Assembly: GCA_026392115.1 (NCBI GenBank)
Contig: JAPLCQ010000143.1
Location: 1 to 64,000 of the forward strand
DNA length: 64,000 nt
From: Armatimonadota bacterium
GTDB taxonomy: Bacteria; Armatimonadota; Chthonomonadetes; Chthonomonadales; CAJBBX01
Reading direction: 5' to 3'
Position numbers and translations under genes: made by a program. Of this stretch, positions 4,863 through 28,906 are shown one piece after another. The notes below the pieces were generated by a model. That model saw only the letters and a program-made list of their open reading frames with translations. It did no database searches and was not told where the DNA came from. The first letter of the stretch is position 1. Every line of letters starts with the position of its first letter.

Positions 4863-7019
4863 ATGAAGCCCACTCTCGCCTATGCCGTATTGGCGGCCTG
4901 CGCGGCGGCCCTGCATGCGCCGGCCCCCGCGGCCCTCGCCGCCGCCTCCGGAGGACCTGTGAAACTGCAACCGTTCGACTACCGGGGCGTGACGCTGGAC
5001 GGCGGCCGCCTGCGCCAGCAAGTCGAGGAGGTGCGCGCGGCATACCTGCGCATCCCCAACGACGACCTGCTCAAGCCCTACCGCCTGCGAGCGGGCAAGC
5101 CCGCGCCCGGCGCCGACCTGAAGGGCGTCTACATCGGCCACGGCACGTTCGGGCAGCACCTCTCGGGTCTGGCCCGCCTCTATGCCGCCACCGGTGATGT
5201 CGCCTGCAAGGAGAAGGCCGAGGCCCTGCTTTCTGGTTGGGCGGACTGCATGGAGCCCGACGGCTACGCGCTGCAGGCCAAGCCCATCGACCTGGCGCCC
5301 TATCACGTCGAGAAGCTGGTCGGCGGGCTCGTGGACATGATCGCCTACTGCGGCGATAGGGGCGCGGCGGAGCCGTTGCTGCGCCTCGTTGCTTGGTCGG
5401 AGGCCAACCTCGCCGGCACCGAGAAGAGCATCAATGCCACCGACGGCAACTGGTACATGCTGAACGGCGAGTGGTACACGCTGGCCGAGAGCTTCTACCG
5501 CGCCTACGAGGTCACCCGCGACGCCCGATGTCTCAAGCTTGCCAAGCGCTTCGAGTACACCGACTTCTGGGAGATCATCCGCCGCCGGGCGAACCCCTTC
5601 GACCGCCCCGGCTGGAAGGGCTGGTACCACGCCTACAGCCACGTCAACTCGTTCTGCGGCGCGGGCCCGGCCTACCGCGTCACCGGCGAGGCGCGCTACC
5701 TCGAGACACTCAAGGCGGCCTACGACTTCATGCAGCGGGAGGAGACCTACGCCACGGGCGGCTTCGGCCCCGGCGAGAGCCTCATCGCCCGGGCCGACCT
5801 CGCGGCCTCGCTGGAGCGCGGCTCAAGCCACTTCGAGACGCAGTGCGGTTCCTGGGCGGGCTTCAAGCTCTGCAAGTACCTGCTGGCCTTCACGGGCGAT
5901 GCGCGCTACGGCGACTGGGCCGAGCGGCTCCTGCTGAACGGCGTCGGCGCCTCCATACCCATGGACCCAGAGGGGCGCGTCTTCTATTACTCCGACTACA
6001 ACCTCGGCGGCGGCGTGAAGAAGCTGATCTCGGACGGCTGGCCCTGCTGCTCGGGCACGCGCATCGAACTGACTGCCGACTACCACGACCTCGTCTTCAT
6101 GCACGATGACGAGACGCTCTACGCCGTGCAGTTTGCTCCGGCAACCGTCGCCTGGAAGCACAGGGGCGCCCGCGTACAGGTGCGGCAGCAGACCCGCTTC
6201 CCGGAGGAAGAGGCCACTGAACTCACGGTGCAAGTCGCTCGGCCACGCGAGTTCGGCCTGGCCGTGCGCCTACCCGAGTGGCTTGCCGGAGAGCCGAAAG
6301 CCTGGGTGAACGGCAAGCCGTTGAGGCTTGAGGCCGGCTCCGACCACTGGGGCAGGGCCCGCCGCCTCTGGCGAAACGGCGACACGCTGCGCGTGTCCCT
6401 GCCCATGAGCTTCCGTCTGAGCCGCATCGATCCGGCCAGGGAGTTCCCGGTCGCCATCATGCGCGGACCGGTGGCGCTGGCCGTGCGTCCCACAGAGGGT
6501 AACCCCTCACGCGAGGTCGATACCAAGCGGCTCGACGCCACGCTGAAGCCGGTGCCGGGCCAGCCGCTCAACTACCGGACGGGCAAGGATGCCGCGCTGT
6601 TGGTGCGGCCGTTCAGCCAGTTCGCGGCAGGGGAGCCCTACTTCCTCTACCTCGATCCCGTGCGCAACTTCGTACGGCGCTCGTGGGAGGGCTACGCGTT
6701 TTCGGGCGCATGGAGCGACTTCGGCGAGTGGCAGACCTCGGCGTCGCCCGGCTCGACCGTGCAGATCTCCTTCACCGGGGTCGGGGTTCGCGTACACGGC
6801 TTCTACTACGATGACGCCGGCATGTTCCAGGTGGAAATCGACGGGAAGGTCGCGGGCACGCTGGACGAGTACGGCGCGGTCCGTGGCGAGAAGGCGCACT
6901 GGGACTTCGCCGGCCTCGCCTCCGGCAGCCACATGTTGCGCTTGACGGTGATGGAGGAGAAGAACACAGCCTCCAAAGGCCGCTTCTGCAATCTGGCATA
7001 CGTCGAGGGGTTGCCGTAG
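4863..7019 (+). CDS. GH127-type (DUF1680) beta-L-arabinofuranosidase-like enzyme
   Basis: 718 residues with an N-terminal signal peptide (MKPTLAYAVLAACAAALHAPAPA), so probably exported. The central region is an (alpha/alpha)6 barrel of the DUF1680/GH127 type. The residues that bind zinc and form the cysteine nucleophile in GH127 enzymes appear in place: Glu325 and Cys328 in ETQC, and Cys395-Cys396 in WPCCSGT. A C-terminal beta-sandwich (about 590-718) resembles a carbohydrate-binding module. Known GH127 enzymes release beta-L-arabinofuranose; related families 142 and 146 share the fold, so the exact sugar is inference. The gene diverges from the kinase and converges with the GH9 gene across a strong hairpin at 7023-7054. 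The start follows a TTGACA promoter with no leader. Confidence 0.85.
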   Translation: MKPTLAYAVLAACAAALHAPAPAALAAASGGPVKLQPFDYRGVTLDGGRLRQQVEEVRAAYLRIPNDDLLKPYRLRAGKPAPGADLKGVYIGHGTFGQHLSGLARLYAATGDVACKEKAEALLSGWADCMEPDGYALQAKPIDLAPYHVEKLVGGLVDMIAYCGDRGAAEPLLRLVAWSEANLAGTEKSINATDGNWYMLNGEWYTLAESFYRAYEVTRDARCLKLAKRFEYTDFWEIIRRRANPFDRPGWKGWYHAYSHVNSFCGAGPAYRVTGEARYLETLKAAYDFMQREETYATGGFGPGESLIARADLAASLERGSSHFETQCGSWAGFKLCKYLLAFTGDARYGDWAERLLLNGVGASIPMDPEGRVFYYSDYNLGGGVKKLISDGWPCCSGTRIELTADYHDLVFMHDDETLYAVQFAPATVAWKHRGARVQVRQQTRFPEEEATELTVQVARPREFGLAVRLPEWLAGEPKAWVNGKPLRLEAGSDHWGRARRLWRNGDTLRVSLPMSFRLSRIDPAREFPVAIMRGPVALAVRPTEGNPSREVDTKRLDATLKPVPGQPLNYRTGKDAALLVRPFSQFAAGEPYFLYLDPVRNFVRRSWEGYAFSGAWSDFGEWQTSASPGSTVQISFTGVGVRVHGFYYDDAGMFQVEIDGKVAGTLDEYGAVRGEKAHWDFAGLASGSHMLRLTVMEEKNTASKGRFCNLAYVEGLP

Positions 7020-7070: not shown

Positions 7071-9146
7071 CTACTTCTGGCCGGCCAGAAAGGCGTACAT
7101 GCAGATGTTCAGCGCCATGGTCTCGTGGACGGTGAACTCGTTGCTGTTGATCAGCGACCAGCCGTCGCAGTAGCGCCGCTGCTCGGGCAGCGAGTACCAG
7201 GCGGGGTAGACCTGCGACCAGACGGCCTTCTGGTAGACCGCGCCGCTGGCGTCGGCCGACGGGCCGTAGACGACGATTCCCGGCACCGGCGCCTTGCCCG
7301 CCAGCGTGGGAAGGTACGAATCCAACTGGCAGATGGACGACGGCGGGTGCGCGCCCAGACCGGTCACGTAGCACTGCCCCAGCGGGTTCAGGCCCAGCGT
7401 GTAGTCGGCCATCTGGCTCACGGCGTCGGTGTACTTCAGGTCGGGCGTCAGCCGGTACTGGAGGATCAGGGGTTCGGCGTAACGGCCCTGGTTGGTGCCC
7501 GCGCCATACCCGAGGCCGCCCACGGGGCCGATGGGGTACGGCATGGCGGCCACGTTGGCGAGGACCTCGTCCGCCCTCTGCTTCAGGATTTTCCGGAACC
7601 CGGCCTGTACGGCCGCGTCCGCGGGCTTGTCGGTGATCAAGTAGGCGAAGAAGTAGGGCGCGAAGACCTGGCCGCCGTTGAGCGAACTGAAGTTCCAGTA
7701 CCGCGGGTTGTAGACCTCGGGCCACGTCGTGTTGGTGATGAGGTACCGCGCGGCTGCGAGGAAGGCCTCGTGGTACTCGGCAAGTCCGGTCGCCAGGTAG
7801 AGGTGTAGGGCTGCGTACATGCGCTGCGCGGGCCTCAGTTCGGCTTGGGGGCCGGCTTCGAGCCAGGTCCATGCCAGCCGTGCCCGGGCCAGGAGTTGCT
7901 CGCTTCGCGTCTTGCTGAACGGCGCCAGCAGGCGAGCCGCATGGGCGAACAGGCCCGCCGACATGGCGGTCGCCGGTGCATCCTTCGCGTAGGTCCGGTA
8001 GACCAGGTTGTCGGTGGAGGAGTCGACCTGGCCGTAGGTCGGATGCCGCTGGGCTTCAACGCCGCCTCGGACCGCGCCGTCGGGATCCTGCAGGGACTCC
8101 CATAGGGCCACACCCCAGAGCGCCTCATCCAGCCAGTCCGGGATGCCGTTGCCCGACTCCGGCAGGTCGAACTGCCCGTCGGTAAAGCCTGCCGGGAACG
8201 CCTCATACTGGTTCAGCATCCACGCCGGGACCTGCAGGTTGGTGAGCTGTCGGTCGAAATCGCCGGCGTCGTGATAGCCGCCGCGCATGGGCCGGGGCTT
8301 GCCGGTGATGGGTCCCGAAAGGAACCCGTAGTGATTGGTCGAGTCGGTGTCGTAGGCGATCAGGTGCGCCTGTCCGACCGCCCTCGGGTGGTCGGAGTGG
8401 TACAGCCCTCGCGTGTGAACGAACGAGGTATGCTCCGATGCCGCGGCGCTGATGCTGAACGGATGCGAGCGGCCGATGCCGTCGACGATGACGACGTAGG
8501 GACCGCCGACGGGCGCCTGCGCGAGGTTGAGGCGGTAGATGTACTCACCCGTGCCCACCTTGCGCGACGGGGTGTCATCCCCCCAGTAGGTGGCGACGCC
8601 TCGCGCCACATCCTCGCCGGTGACCAGCGACCGCACCCTGTAGGTCGGAAGCTCCGGCAACTTCCTTGAGCCCAGGTCGCCGAGGAAGGCGCCGAATACC
8701 GCGTACCGTGCGCGGCCTCGGGGCCAGTAGCCCTCCTGGTTCACCTTCAGGCTCTCGCAGAGCGTTGCGGCGTCGTTGAACGCCAGCGTGGTCTGGCCGA
8801 ATGGCGTGCGGATGGAGTAGGTCCGTCCCACTGAGAGCCTGTTCGGGAGGACCAGGTAGTAGGAGTGAAACATGGTGACGGGGTAGAACGCGCCGAGGTT
8901 GATGGCCTGGTTCGAGGGCACCGACCCGCGGCCCACCGCCAGCGGCGTTGCGCCGTCCACCGCCCAGTCGGCAGGCGCCTGCGAAGGGGCGGCTGCGTCC
9001 GGCGCGGTCTCGGCCTGGATGACGATAACATCGGCGGCAGCCGTCTTGACGGCAACCAAGCGGGCAAGCTGTGCGGTCGCGGAACCGGTCAGCGAGGTCA
9101 TCAATAGGACCAGCGCCGCCGGTAGGGTGAAGGCATAGCGGTTCAT
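7071..9146 (-). CDS. Exported GH9 family glycoside hydrolase (endoglucanase-like)
   Basis: 691 residues starting with a signal peptide (MNRYAFTLPAALVLLMTSLTGSATA). This start is preferred over an in-frame one 30 nt upstream because GGGAG sits 9 nt before it. An N-terminal Ig-like domain (~100-215) precedes the (alpha/alpha)6 catalytic domain, the usual GH9 architecture. Seen: GGYHDAGDFDR with Asp293 and Asp296 (base side) and, near the C terminus, SNEFTVHET with Glu670 as candidate acid. GH9 enzymes invert beta-1,4-glucan links; some are exo-glucosaminidases, so the substrate is not fixed. It lies 98 nt downstream of the importer genes on the same strand and probably belongs to their regulon. 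An 8-bp repeat sits in that gap. Confidence 0.9.
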   Translation of the reverse strand: MNRYAFTLPAALVLLMTSLTGSATAQLARLVAVKTAAADVIVIQAETAPDAAAPSQAPADWAVDGATPLAVGRGSVPSNQAINLGAFYPVTMFHSYYLVLPNRLSVGRTYSIRTPFGQTTLAFNDAATLCESLKVNQEGYWPRGRARYAVFGAFLGDLGSRKLPELPTYRVRSLVTGEDVARGVATYWGDDTPSRKVGTGEYIYRLNLAQAPVGGPYVVIVDGIGRSHPFSISAAASEHTSFVHTRGLYHSDHPRAVGQAHLIAYDTDSTNHYGFLSGPITGKPRPMRGGYHDAGDFDRQLTNLQVPAWMLNQYEAFPAGFTDGQFDLPESGNGIPDWLDEALWGVALWESLQDPDGAVRGGVEAQRHPTYGQVDSSTDNLVYRTYAKDAPATAMSAGLFAHAARLLAPFSKTRSEQLLARARLAWTWLEAGPQAELRPAQRMYAALHLYLATGLAEYHEAFLAAARYLITNTTWPEVYNPRYWNFSSLNGGQVFAPYFFAYLITDKPADAAVQAGFRKILKQRADEVLANVAAMPYPIGPVGGLGYGAGTNQGRYAEPLILQYRLTPDLKYTDAVSQMADYTLGLNPLGQCYVTGLGAHPPSSICQLDSYLPTLAGKAPVPGIVVYGPSADASGAVYQKAVWSQVYPAWYSLPEQRRYCDGWSLINSNEFTVHETMALNICMYAFLAGQK

Positions 9147-9181
9147 GGACTCGAACTCCCTGTGTCCTGCGGCCATGTGGC

Positions 9182-9244: not shown

Positions 9245-11029
9245 CTACTTCTCAATGGGCACCACAATCCCCTGCATGATGACCCGCTGGGCCAGCACGA
9301 AGATGAGAAGCGTGGGCAGCGCCGCCAGCACAAGGGCCGCGAAGATGACGCTCTGGTGCGCCGTCTGTTGGAGCTGGTAGAGCCAGACCATGATGGTCCA
9401 CATCCTCTCGTCCGGGCAGATGATCAGCGCGAACATGAAGGCGCTGTAGGCCGACGTGAAGGCGCCCAGCGCGATCAGGGCCAGGACGGGTGTGCTCAAG
9501 GCCATGGTGAAGCGCCAGAACATCACCCACTCGCCCGCGCCGTCCAGCATGGCGCTCTCGTACATCTCTTGCGGGATGCTGTCGAAGAAGCCCTTGAGGA
9601 TGAAGATGTTGAACCCGTTGGCAAGCCCAGGCAGGACCAGCGCCCAGTAGGTGTTCAGCAGGTGCAGCTCCTTCAGCAGCAGGAAGTTGGGGATCATGGT
9701 CACCGCGCCGGGGAAGGCCATGGTGGCCAGGAAGAACATGAGGATGCCGTAGGTGTTCTTCAGCCGGAACCGCGACAGGGCGTACGCCGCGGCCGGGTTC
9801 ACCAGCAATGCCGCCAGCACGCTGAGGCCGATGAGCGCCACCGTGTTCAGGACGGCTCGCCCGTAGACCGTTACGTAGCCCACCACGATGCGGTAGTTGC
9901 GGGTCATCGTCTCCGCGAGCCAGGCCCGGTGCGTCGCCTCGAAGACCGCGTGGTCGTACGCGGCGATGGGCGGCGCCGTCCGGGCGGCGTCCGGCCGGTG
10001 TGCGGCGGCGTAGGCGCGGTACCGCGTGTTCATGGCATCGACGCGCAGGCGCTCTGGCGGGCATCGATCGGTGATGTACTGGGTGTAGGCCGTGAAGAGG
10101 GCGCTGGAGCGCAGCTCCTCGAGGGTGCACCGGATGTCGGCAAAGGAGGAGTAGCGCGTCTCCAGCAGGGCGTTCATCTTGCCCACGTCTCCACCGAACC
10201 GGTGCGACAGGTCGCTGCGGAAGCCCGCCAGTCCCGCCTGGTCCAGCCGCACGAAGAGGCAGTTGAGCCCGTGCTGCACGAACTCGGCCCACGGTTTGCC
10301 CGAGGCGCCCTCCGGCATCCGCTCGGCAAGGATGGACTGCCGCGGCCACGCGCCGGACTTGACGCCTGCCATCTTCGCCTGCGCCAGAACGTAGAGGCCG
10401 TCCACGTTCACCCAGGCCCGGTCGGCGCCGGGTAGCGCGCGCTTGAAGCGCAAGTAACGGTCGTACAAGGCTGATCGCTCGTAGTTGAACTCCTTCGTGG
10501 CCGGATTGTCCAGCACGCCGGGGAAGTCGTTCCAGGTGGTGATCGGCAGGCCGTAGCGTCGGTTGAACTCACCCACCGAGCCGCACTCCGACCGCAGCGA
10601 GTCGCGCAGCGCCCGGAAGTTGCGCAGTTGCATGGACTGAACGTTGCCCGATTCCGCCACCCAATAGAAGTGGTCCGGGGCCGCTTCCTGCGAGCCGAGG
10701 AACCGGCGCAGAAGCGCGACCCGGTCGCCGCCCGGAGCGTCGGGAAGGTCGCGGAAACGCATCACCTCGCGGCCAAATGCGCTCGACAGGTTGGTGAGCG
10801 TCCCGTACCGGTCCTCCATGAACCGCGCGAACCGAAGCCGCGGCGAGAGAAGGAACTCGGGAAAGGCGTCCATCTGCTCCGTGTCGGCCTGGCCCTTCAC
10901 GCTGCCGGAGAGCATCACCATCAACGGGTAGACCATCGTGACGCCGCCCAGGACCAGTAGCGCATAGATCGCCGCGATGACGAGCCTGACCTTGGGCGTC
11001 CTGCGGCCGATGGCGGGAAGAATGGGCAT
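9245..11029 (-). CDS. MalG-type ABC sugar permease with ~330-residue extracytoplasmic insertion
   Basis: 594 residues, about twice the usual ~280. TM1 is at ~15-38; the next membrane helices begin only near residue 390 and follow normal MalG order, with the cytoplasmic EAA loop readable as EMYESAMLDGAGEWVMF. The extra region (about 45-380) lies between TM1 and TM2 on the outer face, where normal relatives have a short loop. It contains two motifs of the form F-x3-L-x4-G-x(2,3)-V-x3-(N/M)N followed by an aromatic or Tyr-rich turn (RDSLRSECGSVGEFN; FRSDLSHRFGGDVGKMN). These resemble a helical motif seen in GH42-like beta-galactosidases, including two in this window. The start is 4 nt after the partner gene's stop, with GGGGA upstream. 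No ATPase is adjacent, so a shared MsmK-type ATPase is presumed. Confidence 0.85.
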   Translation of the reverse strand: MPILPAIGRRTPKVRLVIAAIYALLVLGGVTMVYPLMVMLSGSVKGQADTEQMDAFPEFLLSPRLRFARFMEDRYGTLTNLSSAFGREVMRFRDLPDAPGGDRVALLRRFLGSQEAAPDHFYWVAESGNVQSMQLRNFRALRDSLRSECGSVGEFNRRYGLPITTWNDFPGVLDNPATKEFNYERSALYDRYLRFKRALPGADRAWVNVDGLYVLAQAKMAGVKSGAWPRQSILAERMPEGASGKPWAEFVQHGLNCLFVRLDQAGLAGFRSDLSHRFGGDVGKMNALLETRYSSFADIRCTLEELRSSALFTAYTQYITDRCPPERLRVDAMNTRYRAYAAAHRPDAARTAPPIAAYDHAVFEATHRAWLAETMTRNYRIVVGYVTVYGRAVLNTVALIGLSVLAALLVNPAAAYALSRFRLKNTYGILMFFLATMAFPGAVTMIPNFLLLKELHLLNTYWALVLPGLANGFNIFILKGFFDSIPQEMYESAMLDGAGEWVMFWRFTMALSTPVLALIALGAFTSAYSAFMFALIICPDERMWTIMVWLYQLQQTAHQSVIFAALVLAALPTLLIFVLAQRVIMQGIVVPIEK

Positions 11030-11033
11030 GGCG

Positions 11034-13442
11034 CTACTTCCCCGCCCTGAACTGCACGCGGCTCAGGTTCTTGAGCTGGAGCAGCGTGAAGCCCAGCAGC
11101 ATGAAGCCCAGCACCCAGGCCATGGCGTTGGCCAGCCCGAACTTGAGGTAGAGGAACGCCGTGTAGAAGAGCTGCAGGCCCACGACTTCCGTGGCGCCAT
11201 ACGGTGTGTAGGGTCCGCCGCCGGTCATGGCGAAAATCATGTCGCTGGACATGAAGGCCCCGATGAAGGCGCCGATGGCGTTGATACGGATCAGCATCCG
11301 GATGCTGGGCAGCGTGACGTGCCATATCTTGGCCCGCATCCCCGCGCCCTCCAGTTCGGCCGCTTCGTAGAGCTCCTCGGGGATGATCTTGAATGCCGCC
11401 AGATAGATCAGGGAGCCGGGTCCCATGCCCGCCCAGATGATCGGCAGCAGCACCGAGGCCATGGCCAGGGCAGGGGAGTCGAGCCAGTTCGCCGTGACGT
11501 GGATGCCCAGCCCGCCCAACAGCGCGTTGAGGAGCCCGGCGGGACGGTAGAAGCTCTTCCAAAGGAAGATGACCACGAGCCCGCTGAGGATGGCCGGCAG
11601 GTAGAAGACGGTGCGGAAGAAGACCTTGCCGCGCGGCGCCTCGGACAGCAGCAGGGCCAACCCGATGGGGCTCAGGAAGCCAAACACCATATAGAGGGAG
11701 GTATAGAGCAGCGTGACTGAGGTCGCGTGCCAGAAGCCGGGGTCGAAGAGCACGCTGGAGAAGTTGGCGACGCCGGCGAACCGGGCGTTGCCCATGATGC
11801 TGTAGTCCTGAAAGGCGATAAGCGTCCCTCGGAGCAGCGGAGTGTACTGCCACACCGCAACGGTGGCCACCGCCGGCAGCAACAGCAGGGCGGGCATGAG
11901 GCGGCGGGCGGCTCCGGGCATGGGCGCGGGCGCCTCGCGGCGGAACATGCGGAGGAGGTAGAGCGTCGCCGCCCCGAAGCCCGAGAACGCCAGCACGAGG
12001 AAGCCCCACGCCATCTGTGTCCGCGACCGTGCCATCTCCGGCGGCATAGTGCCGAACATACGGCGGGCGGTCTCCGCCTGGGCGCGGTCCAGTATCTGCT
12101 TTAGGCGGGCGTGCAGGGCGGCCTCGTCGCCTCGGTCCAACGCTGCCAGCGCCTGCGGATCGTTGATGGCCTCCTCCACCGGCTTGCTCAGCTCGCGGTA
12201 GACCACCGAGCAGTTCTTGCCGTGGGGCTCCGAGCGGCCGTTCACCAGCGCGTCCTTGTAGACCCGCAGCCAGTCCATATCGGCCTGCTTCAGGTAGTCG
12301 CGGTAGCCGAACCGCTCAAGCAGGTCGGGGTTCACGAACTTGCCGAAGCCGTTCTGGATGTAGACCTTCACCCGGATAGCGTTGGCCTCGTCGCTGTCCA
12401 GATAGGCCATGTAGTCGAAGGCGGCCCGGGCCTGCTCGCGGTCCTTCACCCCGGCGAAGAGGCCCACCATGGCGGCGTTGATCTCGGATCGGCTCCGTCC
12501 CTTGCCCTCGGGGTAGGGCGCCGGCGCGAAGCCGATCAGTTCGGGCTGGTAGATGTTCATCCTGTTGTCCAGGTAGCTGAACATCATGGCCTTGTCGTCG
12601 CGCGTGGTCAGGTCGGAGTAGGTGTCGCGTAGCGCGGAGCCCCTGTAGCGCTTGCCGTCCGGCGCGGTGAACCATCGGCAGGTCATGCGGACGTAGAACG
12701 CCAGTGCGTCCACGGCTTCGGGCGTGTTGAAGAGCGGCTTCCAGCGTCCCTTGCCGTCGGTGGCCACGATGTCACCGCCGCGCGACCAGACCAGGTTGGC
12801 GAAGTCCCACGAGCAGATGTCGCCCTTGATGAAGAACATGCCAAAGCGGTTCTGGGCCGGGTTGCAGAGCTTCCGCGAGTAGGCCTCCAGTTCGTCCCAG
12901 GTGCGCGGGGGCCGGTCGGGGTCGAGTCCGGCCCTGGCGAAGAGGTCGCGCCGCCAGGAGAGCACGCGCACCAGGCGGCTCGTGGGGAGCGTGTACCAGT
13001 GCATCTTGCCGTCGGGTCCGCGCCGGTAGCAGACGTCGCGGATCGAGGGAGGCGCCCGCCGGGCCATCTCCGCGGCCGGGATGCGCGCCACGTACTCGTC
13101 CAGCGGCTGCAGGAAGCCCGACGCCACGTAGGTGTCGCTCATGCGGAAGTTGACGTAGAGCACATCCGGCGCGATATCGCCGGCGATCTGCATGAGCGGG
13201 ATCATGTCCAGCGTGTTCGACCCGCCGCCGATCTGCAGCCCCGCCGCCCGCTTCAGCCGCACATGCGGGTACTCGCGCAGGAACGCCTGCACCACAGCCG
13301 TCTCCGCCTTGCTGGCGATGTCCAGCATGAACATACGCGGCAGGTCGTGCACCGTGACGGTGACGTCCCCCCGCCCCGACGCCGAGAGCAGCAACGGCGC
13401 GAGGAGAAGGAGCAGCAGGTTGCGGACCGAACGATGGGCCAT
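11034..13442 (-). CDS. Fused solute-binding protein + MalF-type sugar permease
   Basis: 802 residues. A signal peptide (~1-24) leads into a family-1 type extracellular solute-binding domain (~30-470; segments such as PDVLYVNFRMSDTYVASGFLQPLDEYV and the hinge-like PRTWDELEAYSRKLC). A membrane helix at ~478-498 brings the chain inside, a basic linker follows, then six helices of a MalF-type permease with the EAA loop EELYEAAELEGAGMRAKIWHVTLP (~685-708). The binding protein is thus tethered to its own channel, replacing the separate lipoprotein of standard CUT1 importers. It forms an operon with the second permease (4-nt gap). The ligand is probably an oligosaccharide released by neighbouring hydrolases (inference). 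No Shine-Dalgarno sequence is evident before the ATG. Confidence 0.9.
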   Translation of the reverse strand: MAHRSVRNLLLLLLAPLLLSASGRGDVTVTVHDLPRMFMLDIASKAETAVVQAFLREYPHVRLKRAAGLQIGGGSNTLDMIPLMQIAGDIAPDVLYVNFRMSDTYVASGFLQPLDEYVARIPAAEMARRAPPSIRDVCYRRGPDGKMHWYTLPTSRLVRVLSWRRDLFARAGLDPDRPPRTWDELEAYSRKLCNPAQNRFGMFFIKGDICSWDFANLVWSRGGDIVATDGKGRWKPLFNTPEAVDALAFYVRMTCRWFTAPDGKRYRGSALRDTYSDLTTRDDKAMMFSYLDNRMNIYQPELIGFAPAPYPEGKGRSRSEINAAMVGLFAGVKDREQARAAFDYMAYLDSDEANAIRVKVYIQNGFGKFVNPDLLERFGYRDYLKQADMDWLRVYKDALVNGRSEPHGKNCSVVYRELSKPVEEAINDPQALAALDRGDEAALHARLKQILDRAQAETARRMFGTMPPEMARSRTQMAWGFLVLAFSGFGAATLYLLRMFRREAPAPMPGAARRLMPALLLLPAVATVAVWQYTPLLRGTLIAFQDYSIMGNARFAGVANFSSVLFDPGFWHATSVTLLYTSLYMVFGFLSPIGLALLLSEAPRGKVFFRTVFYLPAILSGLVVIFLWKSFYRPAGLLNALLGGLGIHVTANWLDSPALAMASVLLPIIWAGMGPGSLIYLAAFKIIPEELYEAAELEGAGMRAKIWHVTLPSIRMLIRINAIGAFIGAFMSSDMIFAMTGGGPYTPYGATEVVGLQLFYTAFLYLKFGLANAMAWVLGFMLLGFTLLQLKNLSRVQFRAGK

Positions 13443-14028: not shown

Positions 14029-14520
14029 ATGGCCGAGGACGGAGGCGGGCAACCGGGGCGGCGTCGGCTCATCTTTGGGCCGGGCACGATCATGGGGATC
14101 GTGGGGGCTGTGATCGTCCTGGTGGTGGGCTACTTCACCGACCAGACGCGCAAGCCTGCCACTGAGGGCTCCGCGGGGACCGGAGGGGCGCCCGCCGGCC
14201 TGACGTTGACGGCAGGCGCACCGGAGTGGCGACCCGAGCCGGCGCTCATTCTGCACCGGGCCGGCGAGCTGCGCCTGAAGCCCGATCAGCGTCGCCGGGT
14301 TGAGGGGCTCAACGCCACGTGGCTCGAGCGGAAGGCGGCCCTCAGGGCGCGGCCGAACGGCCCGGACCCGGATGCCGACCAACTGGCCGAAGATGAGAGG
14401 GAGCGCTCCTGGAAGGCCGCGCTGGAGCTACTCGAGCCGAACCAGCGCGAACTGCTGCTGCGCCTCGTGACCCCACGATCCCTCCCCGCGAATCCGGCGC
14501 CCTCCGTGCAGGACCGCTGA
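14029..14520 (+). CDS. Single-pass membrane protein with Spy/CpxP-like helical C-terminal region
   Basis: 163 residues. The start follows TGGAGGGGGCC immediately before the ATG. After ~15 polar residues and an RRR basic patch, one membrane helix (about 21-40, GTIMGIVGAVIVLVVGYF) anchors the protein. The exported part has a low-complexity Gly/Ala linker, then amphipathic helices with LKPDQRRRVEGLNATWLERK and LLEPNQRELLLRLV. This layout resembles periplasmic Spy/CpxP-type proteins, where an L-x-P-x-Q helix pair recurs. Family membership is inference and no metal-binding motif is obvious. The gene converges with the GxGYxYP gene, whose reading frame runs 179 nt into it on the other strand. Confidence 0.6.
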   Translation: MAEDGGGQPGRRRLIFGPGTIMGIVGAVIVLVVGYFTDQTRKPATEGSAGTGGAPAGLTLTAGAPEWRPEPALILHRAGELRLKPDQRRRVEGLNATWLERKAALRARPNGPDPDADQLAEDERERSWKAALELLEPNQRELLLRLVTPRSLPANPAPSVQDR

Positions 14521-16417
14521 GCAGGGCCGCGGCCCGCTTGCCCGCCTCGAAGCACTCCCGATAGACCCCTGCCGCCAGCCGCGCCCGGGCCTCGGCCAGC
14601 GATGCCGAGGAGGCGCGCGTGGCCGTCGTCGCGGGGCGGGCGCTGATCTTCTTTTCCAGCGCGGCGAGCGCAGGCGCCAGCGTCTCGGCGGGCCGCAGCC
14701 GTAGCCGCATCATCAGCAGCAGGTCCGTCGGGCCCAGAAGGCGGACATGGGGCTGCAGCCGCTGGGCGCACCAGACCACCGGCGCCATGCCCCGCGCGGA
14801 GCCGGGCTCGGTTCCCAGTGCGGGCTCGGGCGCCCCGCCTGCCGCGCCGGGCCTGAAGTAGGACCAGGCGTGGACGATGACCCAGCTGAAGCTCTCCTCG
14901 GTTGCCGCGGGGCCTCTGGCGGGCATGGCGTTGAGCCAGTCCGCGACCTGCGCGGGACCGCCGTCGTTGGGGAAGGGCGAGTTGGCCCAGATCGCATAGC
15001 GCGCCGAGACCACCGGCACCTCGCGCTTTGCGCCGCGGACCCAGTAGACCTGGCCCTTGCCAGCCGTGTAGGGTGAGTACTGGAACGCCAGGATGCCCTC
15101 CAGCCCCGGCATCTCCGCGGCCATGGTGGCGCAGGAGCGGCGTGCGTCGAGCGAGTCCCACTCCGTGAAGTTGGCCGAGAGCGCCTGGATGCCGCTCATG
15201 TCCATGTAGGGAGCCATGCGGGATGCATGGGTCCGCATGGCGCCGGCGGACGGGCGCGAGGCGCCGTACAGGTCCGGATAGAGGTAGCCGCCGGTCATCA
15301 ACACGAAGTCGTCGGCGGGCTTGGCGGTCGTTCGCAGGTAGTCCAGCGTGTAGGGGCAGACCTGGGCCAGGTCCGTGCTGCAGATGGTCCAGCCGATGGG
15401 CGCCTTGCCGCGTTCGGGGCTGCCCCACCAGGAGTTCTCGCCCATCAGGAAGTTGCCCATGAGCCACTGCACGTTGTCGCCGTCGGACATGACAAACGCG
15501 GCGTAGTGTACGTCGTCCTCCCACTTCAGGCCCCAGATGCCGCGGGCCGGTCGGGGCTGCAGGCTGCGGGCCGTGAAGCCCTTGCCGGGCGCCTCGGTGG
15601 AGAGGGGCGGCAGGTTGAGGCACCAGTTGGTGGCGGTCTGGAAGGCGCCCCAGCGGGTGCTCGGCTCGGTGAGGCGGCGCTCATCGCCGATGCCCCAGCC
15701 GAGGATGGGCGAGTCTGGCTCTAGCCGCGCCAGGGCCTTGTCGTAGAGCGGTCCCTCGCGCGACATGACGAATGCTCCGGCGGCGACTGCCTCGGCGCGG
15801 CACTCCTGTACCTTGGGGTCGATCATGGCCAGCACCTTGCGCGAGAAGCGCGCTTTGTAGGCGTCGAAGCACTCCTCCTCGGTCATGCCCCGTACGTCCA
15901 GTAGTCGCTGCAGGCCTTTGGCGCGGGCCGTCTCTTCCAGCCCCTCCGGCACGGCAACCGCCCCGAGCGAGGCGCAGAGCGACGTGGCGACGTTGGCCGA
16001 GGCATCTACCTCGCCGGGCTGGTGGAAGGGCCGGTCGGAGGAGTCATAGCGAAACAGGATGTACCCGCGTACGACCCCGCGCGCATGGGCACGTCCCACG
16101 GCCTCCCAGAGCGGCAGCGTCACCGCCTTCGCACCGGTTCGTTTCAGCATCTCGCGGCGCCAGAGCAGGTAGGCCGGATGGTCGAGGTCGCACCAGACCA
16201 TCTCGGAGCCGCCGCGCGACGCTTCCCGGGCCACGAGGCCGGCCAGCGTGTGCAGCACCATGCCGGCCTGGCGGTCGGGCACGTCGCGGACGACCACGAG
16301 CGTCTTCGGTCGAGGGTAGAGGGGCCAGTACCGGTGCAGGATCGCGGCCTTCGCGGCTCCAGGCGCCGCCGGCGCCATGGCGCAGATTGCGGCGAGTAGA
16401 CCGAGCACGGATCCCAT
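14342..16417 (-). CDS. Exported GxGYxYP-domain protein (putative glycosidase-related)
   Basis: 691 residues with a signal peptide (MGSVLGLLAAICAMAPAAPG). It belongs to the GxGYxYP group, whose members lie in polysaccharide-degradation loci and whose activity is not established. Seen: VLMTGGYLYPDLYG, a variant of the signature, MSDGDNVQW, and an N-terminal region built like that of the other GxGYxYP protein at 21240. AGGAGGG lies 5 nt before the ATG. The stop codon of the isomerase-like gene is 1 nt upstream, so the two are coupled. The last ~57 residues (Arg/Ala/Pro/Ser-rich) are the antisense of the gene at 14029-14520 and look like read-through beyond a lost stop; the natural end was probably near 14520. 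Confidence 0.7.
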   Translation of the reverse strand: MGSVLGLLAAICAMAPAAPGAAKAAILHRYWPLYPRPKTLVVVRDVPDRQAGMVLHTLAGLVAREASRGGSEMVWCDLDHPAYLLWRREMLKRTGAKAVTLPLWEAVGRAHARGVVRGYILFRYDSSDRPFHQPGEVDASANVATSLCASLGAVAVPEGLEETARAKGLQRLLDVRGMTEEECFDAYKARFSRKVLAMIDPKVQECRAEAVAAGAFVMSREGPLYDKALARLEPDSPILGWGIGDERRLTEPSTRWGAFQTATNWCLNLPPLSTEAPGKGFTARSLQPRPARGIWGLKWEDDVHYAAFVMSDGDNVQWLMGNFLMGENSWWGSPERGKAPIGWTICSTDLAQVCPYTLDYLRTTAKPADDFVLMTGGYLYPDLYGASRPSAGAMRTHASRMAPYMDMSGIQALSANFTEWDSLDARRSCATMAAEMPGLEGILAFQYSPYTAGKGQVYWVRGAKREVPVVSARYAIWANSPFPNDGGPAQVADWLNAMPARGPAATEESFSWVIVHAWSYFRPGAAGGAPEPALGTEPGSARGMAPVVWCAQRLQPHVRLLGPTDLLLMMRLRLRPAETLAPALAALEKKISARPATTATRASSASLAEARARLAAGVYRECFEAGKRAAALLSGPARRAPDSRGGIVGSRGAAAVRAGSARVAPARPSRSAPSHLRPVGRHPGPGRSAAP

Positions 16418-16418
16418 G

Positions 16419-17222
16419 TCAGCCCTCCTGTTCCGTGGCTTCGCGAAGCCATGCGAGCGAGGCCAGTGCCCGCTCGCGCGGGCGGACCTCGATGCAATAC
16501 TCGCGAACGTCGTGTTGCTCCAGCCGCCGGAGGTGGGGGAGCAGGCCTTCGCAGTCCGGTCCCAACGCGGCATGGGAGCGGCCGTCCTCGGTCCGCCCGT
16601 GCAGATGCACCTGCCGCACCGCCCAGGCGTGCTGGGCGTAGAACCCGCCGGGGTCGGGCTTGGCGAGGTCATGGGCGAGCCAGAGCCAGTGTTTCCGTAC
16701 GAGGGGCCGAAGCAGGGACGTCATGGCGTCGTCCATGCCATGGTTCTCGATGCAGGCCAGGCAGCGGCCGGCGGCCATGCCCGCCACTCTCCGGAGGTTG
16801 GCCTCCAGGGTGGCGAGCATAGCGGTGCGCGCCGTCTCGGGCAGTACGCTCGGTTCGGACTCATCAGTGCGGAACTGCGGCGTGGGCCCGACGTGGAGCG
16901 TAACGCAGTGGGCGCCCAACTCCTCGGCGGCATTGAAGAGCCGCGTCAGATAGGTCAGCGCCGCAGCGCCCAGGTCTGGGTCCAGGCCGCAGAGTCCTGC
17001 CGCGTCGTCCGGCGCATGCAGCGAGAGGAGCAGTCCGTGCCGTCGGCGGTACTCGGCCGTCTCCTGCTTCGCCGCGGGCGACATGACTAACGGCGACAGG
17101 TGCGGCAACTCGGCGGCCGCCTGCACCCCGGCGAAGCCGTTCTCCAAGGCGAAGCGGAGCGCGTCGAGCACGCTCTCATCGTTCACGGCATGGTAGGTGG
17201 TTCGTTGGACGATGCTTGGCAT
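16419..17222 (-). CDS. Sugar phosphate isomerase/epimerase-like TIM barrel (AP endonuclease 2 family)
   Basis: 267 residues, normal length for the xylose isomerase-like TIM-barrel family that isomerises or epimerises sugars and inositols in the cytoplasm. Seen: the barrel strand pattern ending in GAHCVTLHVG, CLACIENHG (Glu as candidate metal ligand), LWLAHDLAK, VRQVHLHGR (His ligand) and YCIEVRP (Glu ligand), in the expected order. There is no signal peptide. It starts at MPSIVQ because a CATAAT box lies 6 nt upstream and no Shine-Dalgarno sequence is present. It is coupled to the GxGYxYP gene, so it may process the sugar that system releases. The substrate is unknown. Confidence 0.8.
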   Translation of the reverse strand: MPSIVQRTTYHAVNDESVLDALRFALENGFAGVQAAAELPHLSPLVMSPAAKQETAEYRRRHGLLLSLHAPDDAAGLCGLDPDLGAAALTYLTRLFNAAEELGAHCVTLHVGPTPQFRTDESEPSVLPETARTAMLATLEANLRRVAGMAAGRCLACIENHGMDDAMTSLLRPLVRKHWLWLAHDLAKPDPGGFYAQHAWAVRQVHLHGRTEDGRSHAALGPDCEGLLPHLRRLEQHDVREYCIEVRPRERALASLAWLREATEQEG

Positions 17223-21239: not shown

Positions 21240-22994
21240 ATGACCCTCTGCCAGATTTCGCTGCTTGCGGCGCTCGTCTTTGTGCCGGCCACGCACGCCG
21301 CCGCGCTTCCGGATGCCGTCCGTCCGCCGATCTACGTCTACACCCTCGATCCCAATGCCAAGGGCCCCGAGGCGTACGACGAGGTCACGACGCTGGTCTC
21401 GCTGCAGGGCCTGATCAACCGGGGCCAGCCGCTTCTCTATGTCGACAATCCCGGCTACGGGCGTCCGAAGTACTGGCTGGACCGGTTGGCCGTCGATGGG
21501 CAGTGGCTGCACGGGCGCGAGCAGGTCAAGGTCGATACCCTCGACGCCGTCTTCGCCCTCGCCAAGCCCAAGGTCAAGGGCGCCGTGATCTGGGACCCCG
21601 AGGTCCCCGCCACGGTGAACGTCGCCACGACGGCGGCGGGCGTCGGGAATGCCGTGGTCCTCAGCCCGGCCATGGCCGACAAGCTCCTCCGGCGGTGGGG
21701 CCTTCGGGTCTTGCGCGATTTCAGGGGCATGTTCAACGGCGCGGAGACGGGAAGCAAGAAGAACGACGCGTACCGGTGGGCCATCCGGCAGTACATCGAG
21801 ACCGGCAAGTGCGACGCGCACTGGCTCAGCCTGTACACCGACGCCCACGCAGACCGGCCTGGCGGGCAGAATGCCTACAACATCGTGCGCGACTGGGCCG
21901 TGACGAACCGCTCGTTCGTGTTTGACCTGTCGCCCTGGGGCGACGAGAAGCCCGGCGACGATCCTGATCAGGTCCTCGGGACCGACCTCGCCACCTACAA
22001 GATGATCCTTGCCGCCACGCAGAAACAGGCACGCGGTCGCCGAATGACCGAACTCACCGGCTTCTTCAGCTTCTGGAAGTACGCCAATATGCCCGAGCAC
22101 TCGAGTTCGCACGATCCGGTGCCCACGGAGTGGCAGACGGTCTGGCTCATCTCACCCTACAACTGCTACCAGAACACCGCCACCGAGTTCTGCTACAACC
22201 AGTCGTTCCACCGCCACGCGCCGCGGACGCCCCTCAAGCAGCCCAAGCCTTCGGCGACGCCGGCGCCCAAGCTCAGGAACACCAACTACGTCGCGATCCT
22301 CATGGCCGACTACGACTCGGCCTATCCGCTCTACCACTTTCTTCCCAAGAACTGGGAGGACCCGAAGCGCGGAGCCGTGCCGCTGAGCTGGGGCATCAAC
22401 CCGAACCTGCTGGAGACCTACCCCGACATCATCTCGAACTTCTACCAGACCGCCACGCCCAACGACCACTTCGTGGCGGACGCCAGTTGTGCGGGCTACA
22501 TCAACCCCAACCGCGTGCTGCCGGAGAACCTGCCGCTGCTGGTGAGCCACAACCTCCGCTTCTACCGCGAGGCCGACATGAGCATCTCCGGCATGGTGCT
22601 GGACTGGGACCAGCCCTCGCCGGCGGTGAAGGACGCCTTCCTCAAGTTTTCGCCCGGCGGCTTCGCCACCATCGTGGACGATATGCACGAGCGCAAAGGC
22701 CGCCACCCGGACCCGCACGTCTGGAAGGGCATGCCCGTGGTTCGGCTCATCAACCACATGGACCCGAACAACACGGACTACAGCGTCAGGGTGCTCCACG
22801 ATATGGTCCAGGCGCGCAAGCCGGACGAGCCGGGCTTCACTTACTGGCGTTGCGTCTGGGTAACACCCAGCCAGATCCAGGCCGTCGTGGACGGCTTCAG
22901 GGCCAAGTACCCGGGCGAGGAGATCGAGTTGGTCAGCCTTCAGACCTTCTTCACCCTCTTCAAGCAGCGCTATGGCGGCGGGGCCAAGCCATGA
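21240..22994 (+). CDS. Exported GxGYxYP-domain protein
   Basis: 584 residues with a signal peptide (MTLCQISLLAALVFVPATHAAA). TGGAG lies 7 nt before this ATG, so it is preferred over one 30 nt upstream. N-terminal segment (VTTLVSLQGLINRGQPLLYVD) and a second half with AILMADYDSAYPLYHF and ADASCAGYINPNRVLPENL, a GxGY-x-(Y/N)P signature variant. It is a diverged relative of the protein at 14342-16417. No catalytic residues are established for the family. The stop overlaps the next start (ATGA), so it is made together with a GH42-like beta-galactosidase. Confidence 0.75.
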   Translation: MTLCQISLLAALVFVPATHAAALPDAVRPPIYVYTLDPNAKGPEAYDEVTTLVSLQGLINRGQPLLYVDNPGYGRPKYWLDRLAVDGQWLHGREQVKVDTLDAVFALAKPKVKGAVIWDPEVPATVNVATTAAGVGNAVVLSPAMADKLLRRWGLRVLRDFRGMFNGAETGSKKNDAYRWAIRQYIETGKCDAHWLSLYTDAHADRPGGQNAYNIVRDWAVTNRSFVFDLSPWGDEKPGDDPDQVLGTDLATYKMILAATQKQARGRRMTELTGFFSFWKYANMPEHSSSHDPVPTEWQTVWLISPYNCYQNTATEFCYNQSFHRHAPRTPLKQPKPSATPAPKLRNTNYVAILMADYDSAYPLYHFLPKNWEDPKRGAVPLSWGINPNLLETYPDIISNFYQTATPNDHFVADASCAGYINPNRVLPENLPLLVSHNLRFYREADMSISGMVLDWDQPSPAVKDAFLKFSPGGFATIVDDMHERKGRHPDPHVWKGMPVVRLINHMDPNNTDYSVRVLHDMVQARKPDEPGFTYWRCVWVTPSQIQAVVDGFRAKYPGEEIELVSLQTFFTLFKQRYGGGAKP

Positions 22995-25950: not shown

Positions 25951-28734
25951 TTACTTCACCACTGTGATCGATCTGGCCGCGACCGTGATGCGGCGATCGC
26001 CTGTGACCGTCCTCGTGATTGCCTTGTCCGTGTTGTTGTAGTAGTGGATTGCCGACCCGACGCGCGATGCCAGGATGCCGTCGTATGCCGCGTCGATGGG
26101 CGCGGCGATGGGCTTCCATGGACCCGTGGAGGCGTGTAGGGCCGCATTCACGAGATGTGCGAAGGAGCCCCAGGGCCCCGGCCAGACGACGGTCCAGCCC
26201 TTGCCAAGCGGGCGCGCCGCGAGGGCGATGGCCTTCTTGGGCGGCATGGCCAGGCCGTCGGCCAGCTTGCCCAGCGAGACGACGGCGTTGTCTGGAGCGC
26301 CGGCGACCTTGAGCTGGACCTCGAACACCTGGAGGCCCAGCGCGCGGGGATCGCTCTGCGGGTTCGGCACCCAGGTAGCGCTCTGGAAGCCGACCCGAGC
26401 GGCTGCAGCGCCGGCCAGGGCGTTCGCCGGTAACAGCGTCTCCACCCACCGCACGGCGCCGGGCCGCACACGGGCGACCGTCACACCGTTCACACTCAGT
26501 ACTCCCCCGACGCCGGTCTGCTCGGGCACGGCCAGGCGCACGCGGAGCGCCACGGGTCCGCCCCGAGGCAGCGGTAGCGTCACGCTACAGTCGCCGCCGG
26601 TCCACCGGTAGCTGGGATCGGGCTCCTGTGTGGTCTTCGGCGCCTGCCCGCCCTCCGGCGCCTGCCACGCGCCGCTCAGTACTTCCTCGGAACCGGAGCC
26701 GATATCCAGCGCAACACCCCGAACGCTCGGCAGGGCCGCAGTAGCCCGTGCGGTCTCGGCCCATGGGGCGCGGAGCCATGGGGCCGCCGTGCCCTCAACC
26801 GACCGGAGTGGCAGGCAGCCGGTCGACGCCATGAGCACCCCGCCGCCTGCCACCCACTTCCGGAGCGCCGTGATCGACGCCTGCTCCAGCGTGTCTCCGG
26901 CGAGGATGACGACCGCCCGGAAGCACTTCAGCATGCCGTCGGCGATCATGTTCTCGTCTATGAACTCGAAGTCCACCGCGTCCCGCAGCTTCTCGGCGCG
27001 CGAGAGGAACGTGCCCAGCACGCCCCCGTCCAGCGCGATGGACGAGTTGGGCATGATCGCCGCCACGGTGAGCCGTGGCCGGTTCGGCGCCAGGCGAGCG
27101 GCGTTTTCCATGAACCGGATGCCCTTCATGGTGGGCTGGTCCGGCGCGTCCATCAGGTACTTGAAGTAGGCGCCGCGGCTCCCGCCCGCAGTGGCGTCGA
27201 ACACGCGGCCTGCGATACCCCAAGCCGAGTTGTCGCCGCCGGGCTCGGTGGTGTAGTACTGGCCGTAGAGCCGCGTGGACGACCCCACCATACGGGTGAT
27301 GGCGAAGTTCGCCGCCGCGTCGTCGCCCTGGTTCGTGATCCGGATGCCCGCGCCGTACCGGGCGCACATCCTCGCCTGCGCGCCGAAGTCCGCGCCCAGC
27401 ATCGGCTGTCCGTCGCCGCCTGTGCAGAGGTAGATGGGCAGCGTCGGGTAGAGCTCGCGCGCGGTCTTCACCCAGTGCTCGGCGTAGTCCGTCATCGACC
27501 GGGTGTACCACGCGACGATATCCACCGTGGCTCGGCGCGATGGCGCGGAGCCGGGCGCCATCGGCTCGACCGCTTCGAATTCGCCATACGACGTGCGCCA
27601 CGCCGCGTTCAGAGCCGCCGTCGTTCCATACTTGGCTCGGAGCCACCGCTGCAGGTCCGCTCGGGCGTACCGGTCGCCGCACCACCACCCGGCATGGGTG
27701 TGTTGCCCGGCCATGTCAAACCCGCCGCCCGCCGGCATGAGCGACTCGCCCCAGTTGCCCGAGATGCCCAGGTTCAGCGCCTCGATAACGCCGGGCTCGT
27801 AGTGGGCGCGGAAGAGCTCCAAGAACCGCCGCACCCCGCCGCGCAGAGCGGGGTTCCAGATGCTCTGGATCGGGGTCGACTGCTTGTGTTCCATGCAGAC
27901 CGCGTCCACGCCGCCCTCGGACCGGAACCACTTCGGCGTGGCGACGTAGGGCGCGGTGATCAGGAAGGGAAGCCACTTCAGCTTGTGCTTGCGGATCTGG
28001 GCGACCACGGGATCATACGTTGCGTAGGTGACCCGGCCCTTCTCGGGCTCGAGTTGCGCCCAGCCGACGTAGCTCTGCAGGCTGGTGATGCCGATCTTCT
28101 TGGCCACGCGGTAGGCGTTGTCGGCCAGCTGGCCCGCCGGGACCGGCTCATGGACCTGCCACTGCTGGATCACGGTCATGCCGGGCGGGACCACGGCCGC
28201 ACGGCGCGCCGCCAGCAGTTGCACCGGGTCGGCCGGCGGCACATAGCCCTCGGGTTGACGGCGGGCGAGCGTGATGCGCGCCACGGCCAGCGCGCCGGTG
28301 GTCCCCACGCGGAAGTCGGCGTCGCCGTTCTGCCGACCGCCGAACGACGGCCTGCGCAGCATGAATGTGGCCGAGCGCCACTGCCGCGTCTCGCGCTGCT
28401 TGGTCACATCCGGCGATGAGAGATAGGCGCCGCCCTCGCCGGCGTCGTACTCCACGGTGATATCGCCGGCCTGGTCGAAGTACTCGATGATCGCGTACAG
28501 CGCCTGCGGCATGGCTGGGCGCGGAGAGACCTGAACATAGAGGAAGTTGCCGCCGGCGTTGCGGTCGATCATGCGGCACGCCCTGCCGCCGAGGGTCACG
28601 GCGCGGTTCACCCCGTCGCCGTAGCTGCGGACCACGAGCCCCTTCGCCACGTTGGTCGGCCCTAGCTCGACTGAAGGCGCTCCACTCGCCGCGCCTCCTA
28701 GCCACATCAGCAACCCCAGGTACCACATATCCAT
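25951..28734 (-). CDS. Clan-A beta-galactosidase-like protein (GH14/GH42-like) with GATase-like domain
   Basis: 927 residues. Start MDMWYLGLLMWLGGAASG with GGAGGGG directly upstream gives a short signal peptide. Order: N-terminal beta-sandwich (~25-165), TIM barrel (~190-560) with SYVGWAQLEPEKGRVTY on an early strand and Glu330 in GISGNWGES as candidate acid/base, the helix LQRWLRAKYGTTAALNAAW typical of GH42-like enzymes, a GATase-like domain (~600-690, CFRAVVILAGDTLEQ, WVAGGGVLMAST), and C-terminal beta domains. It faces the gene at 28907 across a 172-bp divergent gap. Probably an exported beta-galactoside-acting enzyme; the GH family cannot be fixed by eye. Confidence 0.65.
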   Translation of the reverse strand: MDMWYLGLLMWLGGAASGAPSVELGPTNVAKGLVVRSYGDGVNRAVTLGGRACRMIDRNAGGNFLYVQVSPRPAMPQALYAIIEYFDQAGDITVEYDAGEGGAYLSSPDVTKQRETRQWRSATFMLRRPSFGGRQNGDADFRVGTTGALAVARITLARRQPEGYVPPADPVQLLAARRAAVVPPGMTVIQQWQVHEPVPAGQLADNAYRVAKKIGITSLQSYVGWAQLEPEKGRVTYATYDPVVAQIRKHKLKWLPFLITAPYVATPKWFRSEGGVDAVCMEHKQSTPIQSIWNPALRGGVRRFLELFRAHYEPGVIEALNLGISGNWGESLMPAGGGFDMAGQHTHAGWWCGDRYARADLQRWLRAKYGTTAALNAAWRTSYGEFEAVEPMAPGSAPSRRATVDIVAWYTRSMTDYAEHWVKTARELYPTLPIYLCTGGDGQPMLGADFGAQARMCARYGAGIRITNQGDDAAANFAITRMVGSSTRLYGQYYTTEPGGDNSAWGIAGRVFDATAGGSRGAYFKYLMDAPDQPTMKGIRFMENAARLAPNRPRLTVAAIMPNSSIALDGGVLGTFLSRAEKLRDAVDFEFIDENMIADGMLKCFRAVVILAGDTLEQASITALRKWVAGGGVLMASTGCLPLRSVEGTAAPWLRAPWAETARATAALPSVRGVALDIGSGSEEVLSGAWQAPEGGQAPKTTQEPDPSYRWTGGDCSVTLPLPRGGPVALRVRLAVPEQTGVGGVLSVNGVTVARVRPGAVRWVETLLPANALAGAAAARVGFQSATWVPNPQSDPRALGLQVFEVQLKVAGAPDNAVVSLGKLADGLAMPPKKAIALAARPLGKGWTVVWPGPWGSFAHLVNAALHASTGPWKPIAAPIDAAYDGILASRVGSAIHYYNNTDKAITRTVTGDRRITVAARSITVVK

Positions 28735-28848
28735 GCCCCTCCCGCCGAACCGTCTCTGCCGTCGTAGTTCGGCGTGGAAAGGCTCAGGTCCTGTATGGGC
28801 GGCGTCCGGATGTGATAGCGACCGACGAACGTGCGTCGCCGCGAAGGG

Positions 28849-28854
28849 TATAGT
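28849..28854 (+). promoter_or_regulatory. -10-like box TATAGT in the divergent region
   Basis: GGGTATAGT, 52 nt before the ATG at 28907, is the best promoter-like element in the 172-bp gap. No -35 hexamer is evident at 16-18 bp upstream. Confidence 0.4.
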
Positions 28855-28906
28855 CTGACGCCGCCGCCGTTCGCCCGTCCCATCGCGCCTCCCGGAGGTC
28901 TGCCCC

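Follow-up and report, generated by a model that had tools for sequence, protein, structure and literature searches.

The type I importer MalFGK2-MalE of Escherichia coli (PDB 2r6g) combines MalF and MalG cores bearing EAA loops with a MalK-type ATPase and a separate binding protein of the SBP_bac_1 type, MalE, with which the large periplasmic loop P2 of MalF communicates. A version in which MalE is fused to MalF is also known (Licht et al. 2019, Res Microbiol 170:1-12, cited in PMC9045158 and PMC7756565); as its title and the citing papers present it, this CUT1 importer carries a single solute-binding domain N-terminal on MalF and is transport-competent without releasing its binding protein. 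Here we analysed a 64,000-nucleotide stretch of DNA from an Armatimonadota bacterium (the window) that encodes an importer sharing the cores, EAA loops, binding-protein type and ATPase type of the E. coli system and the fused domain order of the Licht system. Unlike in E. coli, the binding protein is not separate, and the large periplasmic element is a repeat array that sits on MalG rather than on MalF. No repeat-array MalG is mentioned in the title or citations of the Licht fusion, by which alone the two importers were compared.

Anatomy of the gene pair

The two genes lie on the minus strand, separated by 4 nt (Table 1). The product of the first, P0002, is composed of a signal peptide (residues 1-27, without a lipobox cysteine), a binding protein, an extra transmembrane helix (TM0) and MalF. 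Its binding domain matched the trehalose/maltose-binding protein 1eu8 at 2e-14, and the linker between this domain and TM0 measures 41-61 aa in most family members. PF00528 scored just under its gathering score on the MalF core of the window copy and above it in relatives. The second product, P0001, has six transmembrane helices by hydropathy, with TM2 at residues 392-410 and a TM1-TM2 spacing of 357 residues. Alignments showed that the EAA loops are conserved in both MalG and SBP-MalF of the family; the closest named relatives of the MalG were from two metagenome-assembled genomes labelled uncultured Chthonomonas (90-93% identity). In two family loci (L125 and L128) the SBP-MalF linker to MalF was apparently about twice as long (103-106 aa), and the MalG repeats of these loci are near the detection limit.

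Table 1 Features of the importer locus and related elements in the window
Feature	Coordinates	Strand	Basis
SBP-MalF fusion gene (P0002, 802 aa)	11034..13442	-	ORF; Pfam/NCBIfam matches SBP_bac_1 (res 47-346, 8.1e-22) and UgpA/MalF-type permease (res 509-793)
P0002 periplasmic solute-binding domain (res about 28-466)	12045..13361	-	Pfam SBP_bac_1 47-346; PDB 1eu8; hydropathy
P0002 extra helix TM0 (res 479-497), joining binding domain to MalF	11952..12008	-	Hydropathy; basic residues C-terminal of helix
P0002 MalF-type transmembrane core (res 509-802), EAA loop YEAAELEGAG	11037..11918	-	NCBIfam UgpA/MalF; conserved alignment columns
MalG gene with periplasmic repeat insert (P0001, 594 aa)	9245..11029	-	ORF; BPD_transp_1 3.2e-9 at res 428-586; MalG/UgpE matches
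P0001 TM1 (res 16-34)	10928..10984	-	Hydropathy, basic N-terminus
P0001 insert between TM1 and TM2 (res 45-388, ~344 residues), degenerate repeat array	9866..10897	-	Repeat HMM, shuffles, family alignments
Repeat unit 1 (res 59-123)	10661..10855	-	Clade-free HMM, i-E 1.3e-6, Z=1
Repeat unit 2 (res 142-200), contains SLRSECGSVGEFN at res 144	10430..10606	-	Clade-free HMM, i-E 3.8e-6, Z=1
Repeat unit 4 (res 257-330), contains DLSHRFGGDVGKMN at res 273	10040..10261	-	Clade-free HMM, i-E 6.5e-12, Z=1
P0001 MalG transmembrane core (res 389-594), EAA-type loop YESAMLDGA	9248..9865	-	Invariant E491, D496, G497, A498 in family alignment
GH9 (cellulase-type) protein, 701 aa, downstream	7071..9176	-	Pfam GH9 5.3e-29
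Single repeat unit, WLRAKYGTTAALN..., res 422-458 of GH42-like 992-aa ORF 25951-28929	27556..27666	-	Repeat HMM 5e-9; Pfam GH42 3e-9

Judged from its sequence, the importer is a CUT1-type (MalFG-like) ABC sugar importer whose binding protein is tethered to MalF through the extra helix. Namely, it has two permeases with a BPD_transp_1 fold and an EAA loop, an SBP_bac_1-type protein and, elsewhere in each of five genomes tested, a MalK-type ATPase; it departs from two usual but non-essential CUT1 traits, a binding protein that is free or anchored by lipid and periplasmic MalG loops that are short. The basic N-terminus of MalG places the TM1-TM2 loop in the periplasm, and the extra helix after the P0002 binding protein puts both large parts on one face of the membrane. 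The domain matches, hydropathy and charge thus agree with a preliminary description of this DNA, which had assigned a binding protein to the N-terminus of the MalF-type subunit and a large insertion on the same outer face to the MalG-type subunit.

An oligosaccharide is the probable substrate, given that trehalose/maltose and other sugars are the ligands of the most similar binding proteins of solved structure. Orthologues of the downstream GH9 protein, 82-84% identical, occupy the same place in two relatives (L025 and L026), a synteny conserved within the genus only. The flanks of the importer, a GxGYxYP putative glycoside hydrolase (14342-16672, minus strand) and a GH127 beta-L-arabinofuranosidase (4863-7019, plus strand), are likewise maintained in these two loci of the genus. 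Among family loci, neighbouring genes were not conserved and we found no conserved operon partner hinting at the substrate.

Seven further CUT1 loci in the same genome encode a separate binding protein, and their permeases are plain wherever they fall within the examined stretch. This genome also contains a second SBP-MalF fusion (L155:4776-7361, minus strand; G000:C56), which is of the lipoprotein type with the lipobox LAGLAALGGC. Its paired MalG has some tens of extra TM1-TM2 residues and no array, so a tethered binding protein alone does not require one. An OB_MalK ATPase (PF17912) was present at one locus per genome in the five genomes tested, unlinked to the pair, and therefore presumably serves all importers.

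Repeats in the MalG insert and their GH42 relatives

Searching Armatimonadota with the insert alone returned relatives in 42 of 291 genomes, and alignment of 43 loci revealed a recurring block, from which a single-block HMM was built and then iterated over the MalG family. With the iterated HMM, canonical MalG proteins showed about five tandem degenerate copies of 65-80 residues each, with the consensus lfrkfLekrYggdiealNraygtdyasfdevelPaelplPengrlvadWleFvrtalPleflrv; fewer were detectable in some families. Across the family, inserts span 239-453 aa and contain from none to six detectable repeats. As the window's clade had contributed to training the first HMM, a second one was built with this clade omitted; it gave the window MalG, the most degenerate copy in the family, 63.8 bits, whereas none of 2,000 shuffled inserts exceeded 13.0 bits. 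Both copies of a helical motif picked out in the preliminary description were recovered above shuffles, but two was an undercount, with three units detectable in the window and about five in the family.

HMMs built for single repeat positions also picked up the remaining positions, in 18-29 of the 29 proteins. The nearest neighbour of each repeat was the same position in a different species (145/145), which indicates that the duplications are older than the radiation of the tested five-repeat proteins. AF2 run on P0001 with a three-row alignment (window, L025 and L026) returned a pLDDT of 33.7, too low for a usable model.

Against the PDB, the repeat profile matched GH42 enzyme 1kwg (residues 151-218) at 1.4e-9, and also GH14 beta-amylases, GH35-type enzymes and agarases. 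In a canonical family member (L097), Pfam GH42 matched at 1.7e-15 in four stretches, the best covering profile positions 148-211 of 376, and GH14 at 2.5e-7. Pfam and NCBIfam searches with the window MalG alone did not detect GH42, and the link appears only via relatives. The sharing of the motif with a GH42-like enzyme, also proposed from the letters alone, was confirmed by a repeat unit in the 992-aa ORF on the minus strand of the window (Table 1) and by the match of the repeat profile to GH42. A weak single-unit match (4e-5) was also seen at residues 732-797 of a 1252-aa ORF (22130-25888, plus strand) that has no significant Pfam match.

These profile matches indicate that the repeat is homologous to subdomain H, the helical segment downstream of strand 4 in GH42/GH14 barrels. 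GH42 beta-galactosidases (1kwg and 5e9a) and GH14 beta-amylases (1b90 and 3voc) have in common with the MalG repeats a helical excursion of the form YGt..LN..wgT....s...P....DW..F; the enzymes hold one copy within a catalytic (beta/alpha)8 barrel, whereas the MalG array strings about five together and has neither a barrel nor catalytic residues. In GH42/GH164 enzymes the acid/base lies on strand 4 and the nucleophile on strand 7 (Glu157 and Glu314 in 5e9a), and subdomain H, which lies after strand 4 and before the following helix, touches the adjacent chain, a contact suggested by the authors to stabilise the trimer (PMC7105311). On 5e9a the repeat match covers residues 192-252, a region with neither catalytic glutamate and no complete barrel, which argues against a hydrolase and for an insert made of repeated copies of a non-catalytic interaction module. 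Since subdomain H contacts a neighbouring chain, the ancestral module would itself have been an interaction element.

Partnership across Armatimonadota

At 35 of the 43 loci the SBP-MalF fusion gene adjoins the repeat-bearing MalG. When 291 Armatimonadota genomes were searched by profile, at a threshold (E < 1e-80) that excludes ordinary CUT1 genes, this MalG was found in 147 genomes and its SBP-MalF partner in 146; presence was scored per genome from no more than four MalG and three MalF candidates, and copy counts are possibly too low. Both genes occurred in 138 genomes, MalG only in 9, MalF only in 8 and neither in 136 (Fisher p 1.5e-60, ignoring shared ancestry), so the paired architecture noted at this locus is conserved in other genomes. 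Completeness was below 90% in 8 of the 9 MalG-only genomes, and among genomes at least 90% complete, none had the array without the fusion except one (G105, 92%).

Both genes are retained despite lying far apart in a number of families (f8, f9, f14, f15 and others); G112, for example, has MalG at C2:113341 and SBP-MalF at C2:205297. Where the pair is split (L135-L150), SBP-MalF adjoined recA in 6 and priA in 3 of the 57 neighbours scanned. The pattern resembles that of a core importer retained by vertical inheritance and not of a sugar system bound to one locus. No array was found among 300 sampled Bacillota genomes, where only single GH42-type units occurred, and scans of viral contigs gave only short permease-core matches or nothing. 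A plasmid search matched 2,127 records, none covering 80% of the protein, the best among the matches listed being to the permease end only.

With both permease cores controlled for, insert and binding-domain distances showed a modest partial correlation (0.32), similar to that between the insert and the MalG core (0.31). Some MalF cores carry about 70-180 extra residues of their own (L062, L063, L074, L076 (core about 374 aa) and L095 (478 aa)). We considered these insertions (L062 and L095) as further arrays and rejected the idea, as the repeat HMM gave no match.

Possible roles of the array

For the subdomain-H array on the MalG of this CUT1-type importer, with its MalF-tethered binding protein, we infer, with slightly more confidence than doubt, a role as a non-catalytic docking scaffold. 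This reading draws on the interaction role of subdomain H in the source enzymes, the near-obligate pairing and the modest correlation between insert and binding domain. The array would form a helical periplasmic structure, a cradle beside the tethered binding protein, that would dock the binding domain, keep it above the permease entrance and orient its lobes, a job likened to that of the MalF P2 loop in E. coli. Captured oligosaccharide would then be handed to the MalFG pore, with import powered by the shared ATPase. Counting against this reading, the MalG partner of the second fusion lacks an array and some family members have no detectable repeat. The preliminary description also suggested that no diffusible binding protein is needed; this holds for the fusion alone, where a published precedent exists in the Licht importer as described through PMC9045158 and PMC7756565.

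A bolder form of the scaffold reading, tentative and in our view somewhat less probable than its opposite, is that these proteins may constitute a phylum-wide importer class. There, a helical element excised from a glycosidase barrel, duplicated in tandem and incorporated into MalG would be a permanent cage around the tethered binding protein, uniting capture, holding and delivery in one closed assembly without binding-protein exchange.

The array might instead be a glycan-binding platform, its GH42-derived units holding periplasmic oligosaccharides and feeding them to the tethered binding protein, much like the capture chamber of the preliminary description but with no cutting. The source module does sit beside a glycosidase active site, and in the window's genus the operon runs on into the GH9 enzyme. 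However, the near-invariant residues of the insert look mostly structural (P, N, D and one W), the stretch from GT to the following conserved block is shorter in the aligned repeats than in GH42, and there is no conserved association with glycosidase loci, unlinked copies adjoining recA or priA. We regard this role as unlikely. With Armatimonadota taken to be diderm, both this envelope and the wide range of insert lengths would suit an array whose main job is to fix the importer's location, as a spacer or as an anchor to, for instance, peptidoglycan or a porin of the outer membrane, the tethered binding protein being incidental; that the array keeps strictly to one SBP-MalF clade, also where the genes are unlinked, points to the complex itself and renders such a role distinctly improbable. 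A GH42-like hydrolase forming a catalytic capture-and-trim chamber at the permease mouth, as first imagined for the outer domain, is scarcely credible: canonical members do have significant Pfam GH42 and GH14 matches, but these recur and are short (~60 positions; ~148-211 of the 376-position GH42 profile), represent in tandem just the helical, non-catalytic segment that comes after strand 4, exclude the acid/base (strand 4) and the nucleophile (strand 7), and leave an insert filled by repeats.

A search of open-access literature, which misses most subscription papers, yielded no account of a MalG carrying GH42-derived repeats. The SBP-MalF fusion itself is known; a MalG of this kind, its near-obligate pairing and its spread through the phylum appear to be undescribed. 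In this family, a subdomain of a TIM-barrel enzyme has become a free-standing tandem repeat recruited into a membrane transporter, and automatic GH42 matches on such permeases do not imply enzymes. The conserved, nearly one-to-one partnership of a tethered binding protein with an enlarged MalG across a whole phylum opens to test whether a type I importer gains from a permanently docked binding protein, and what role large periplasmic permease loops play.
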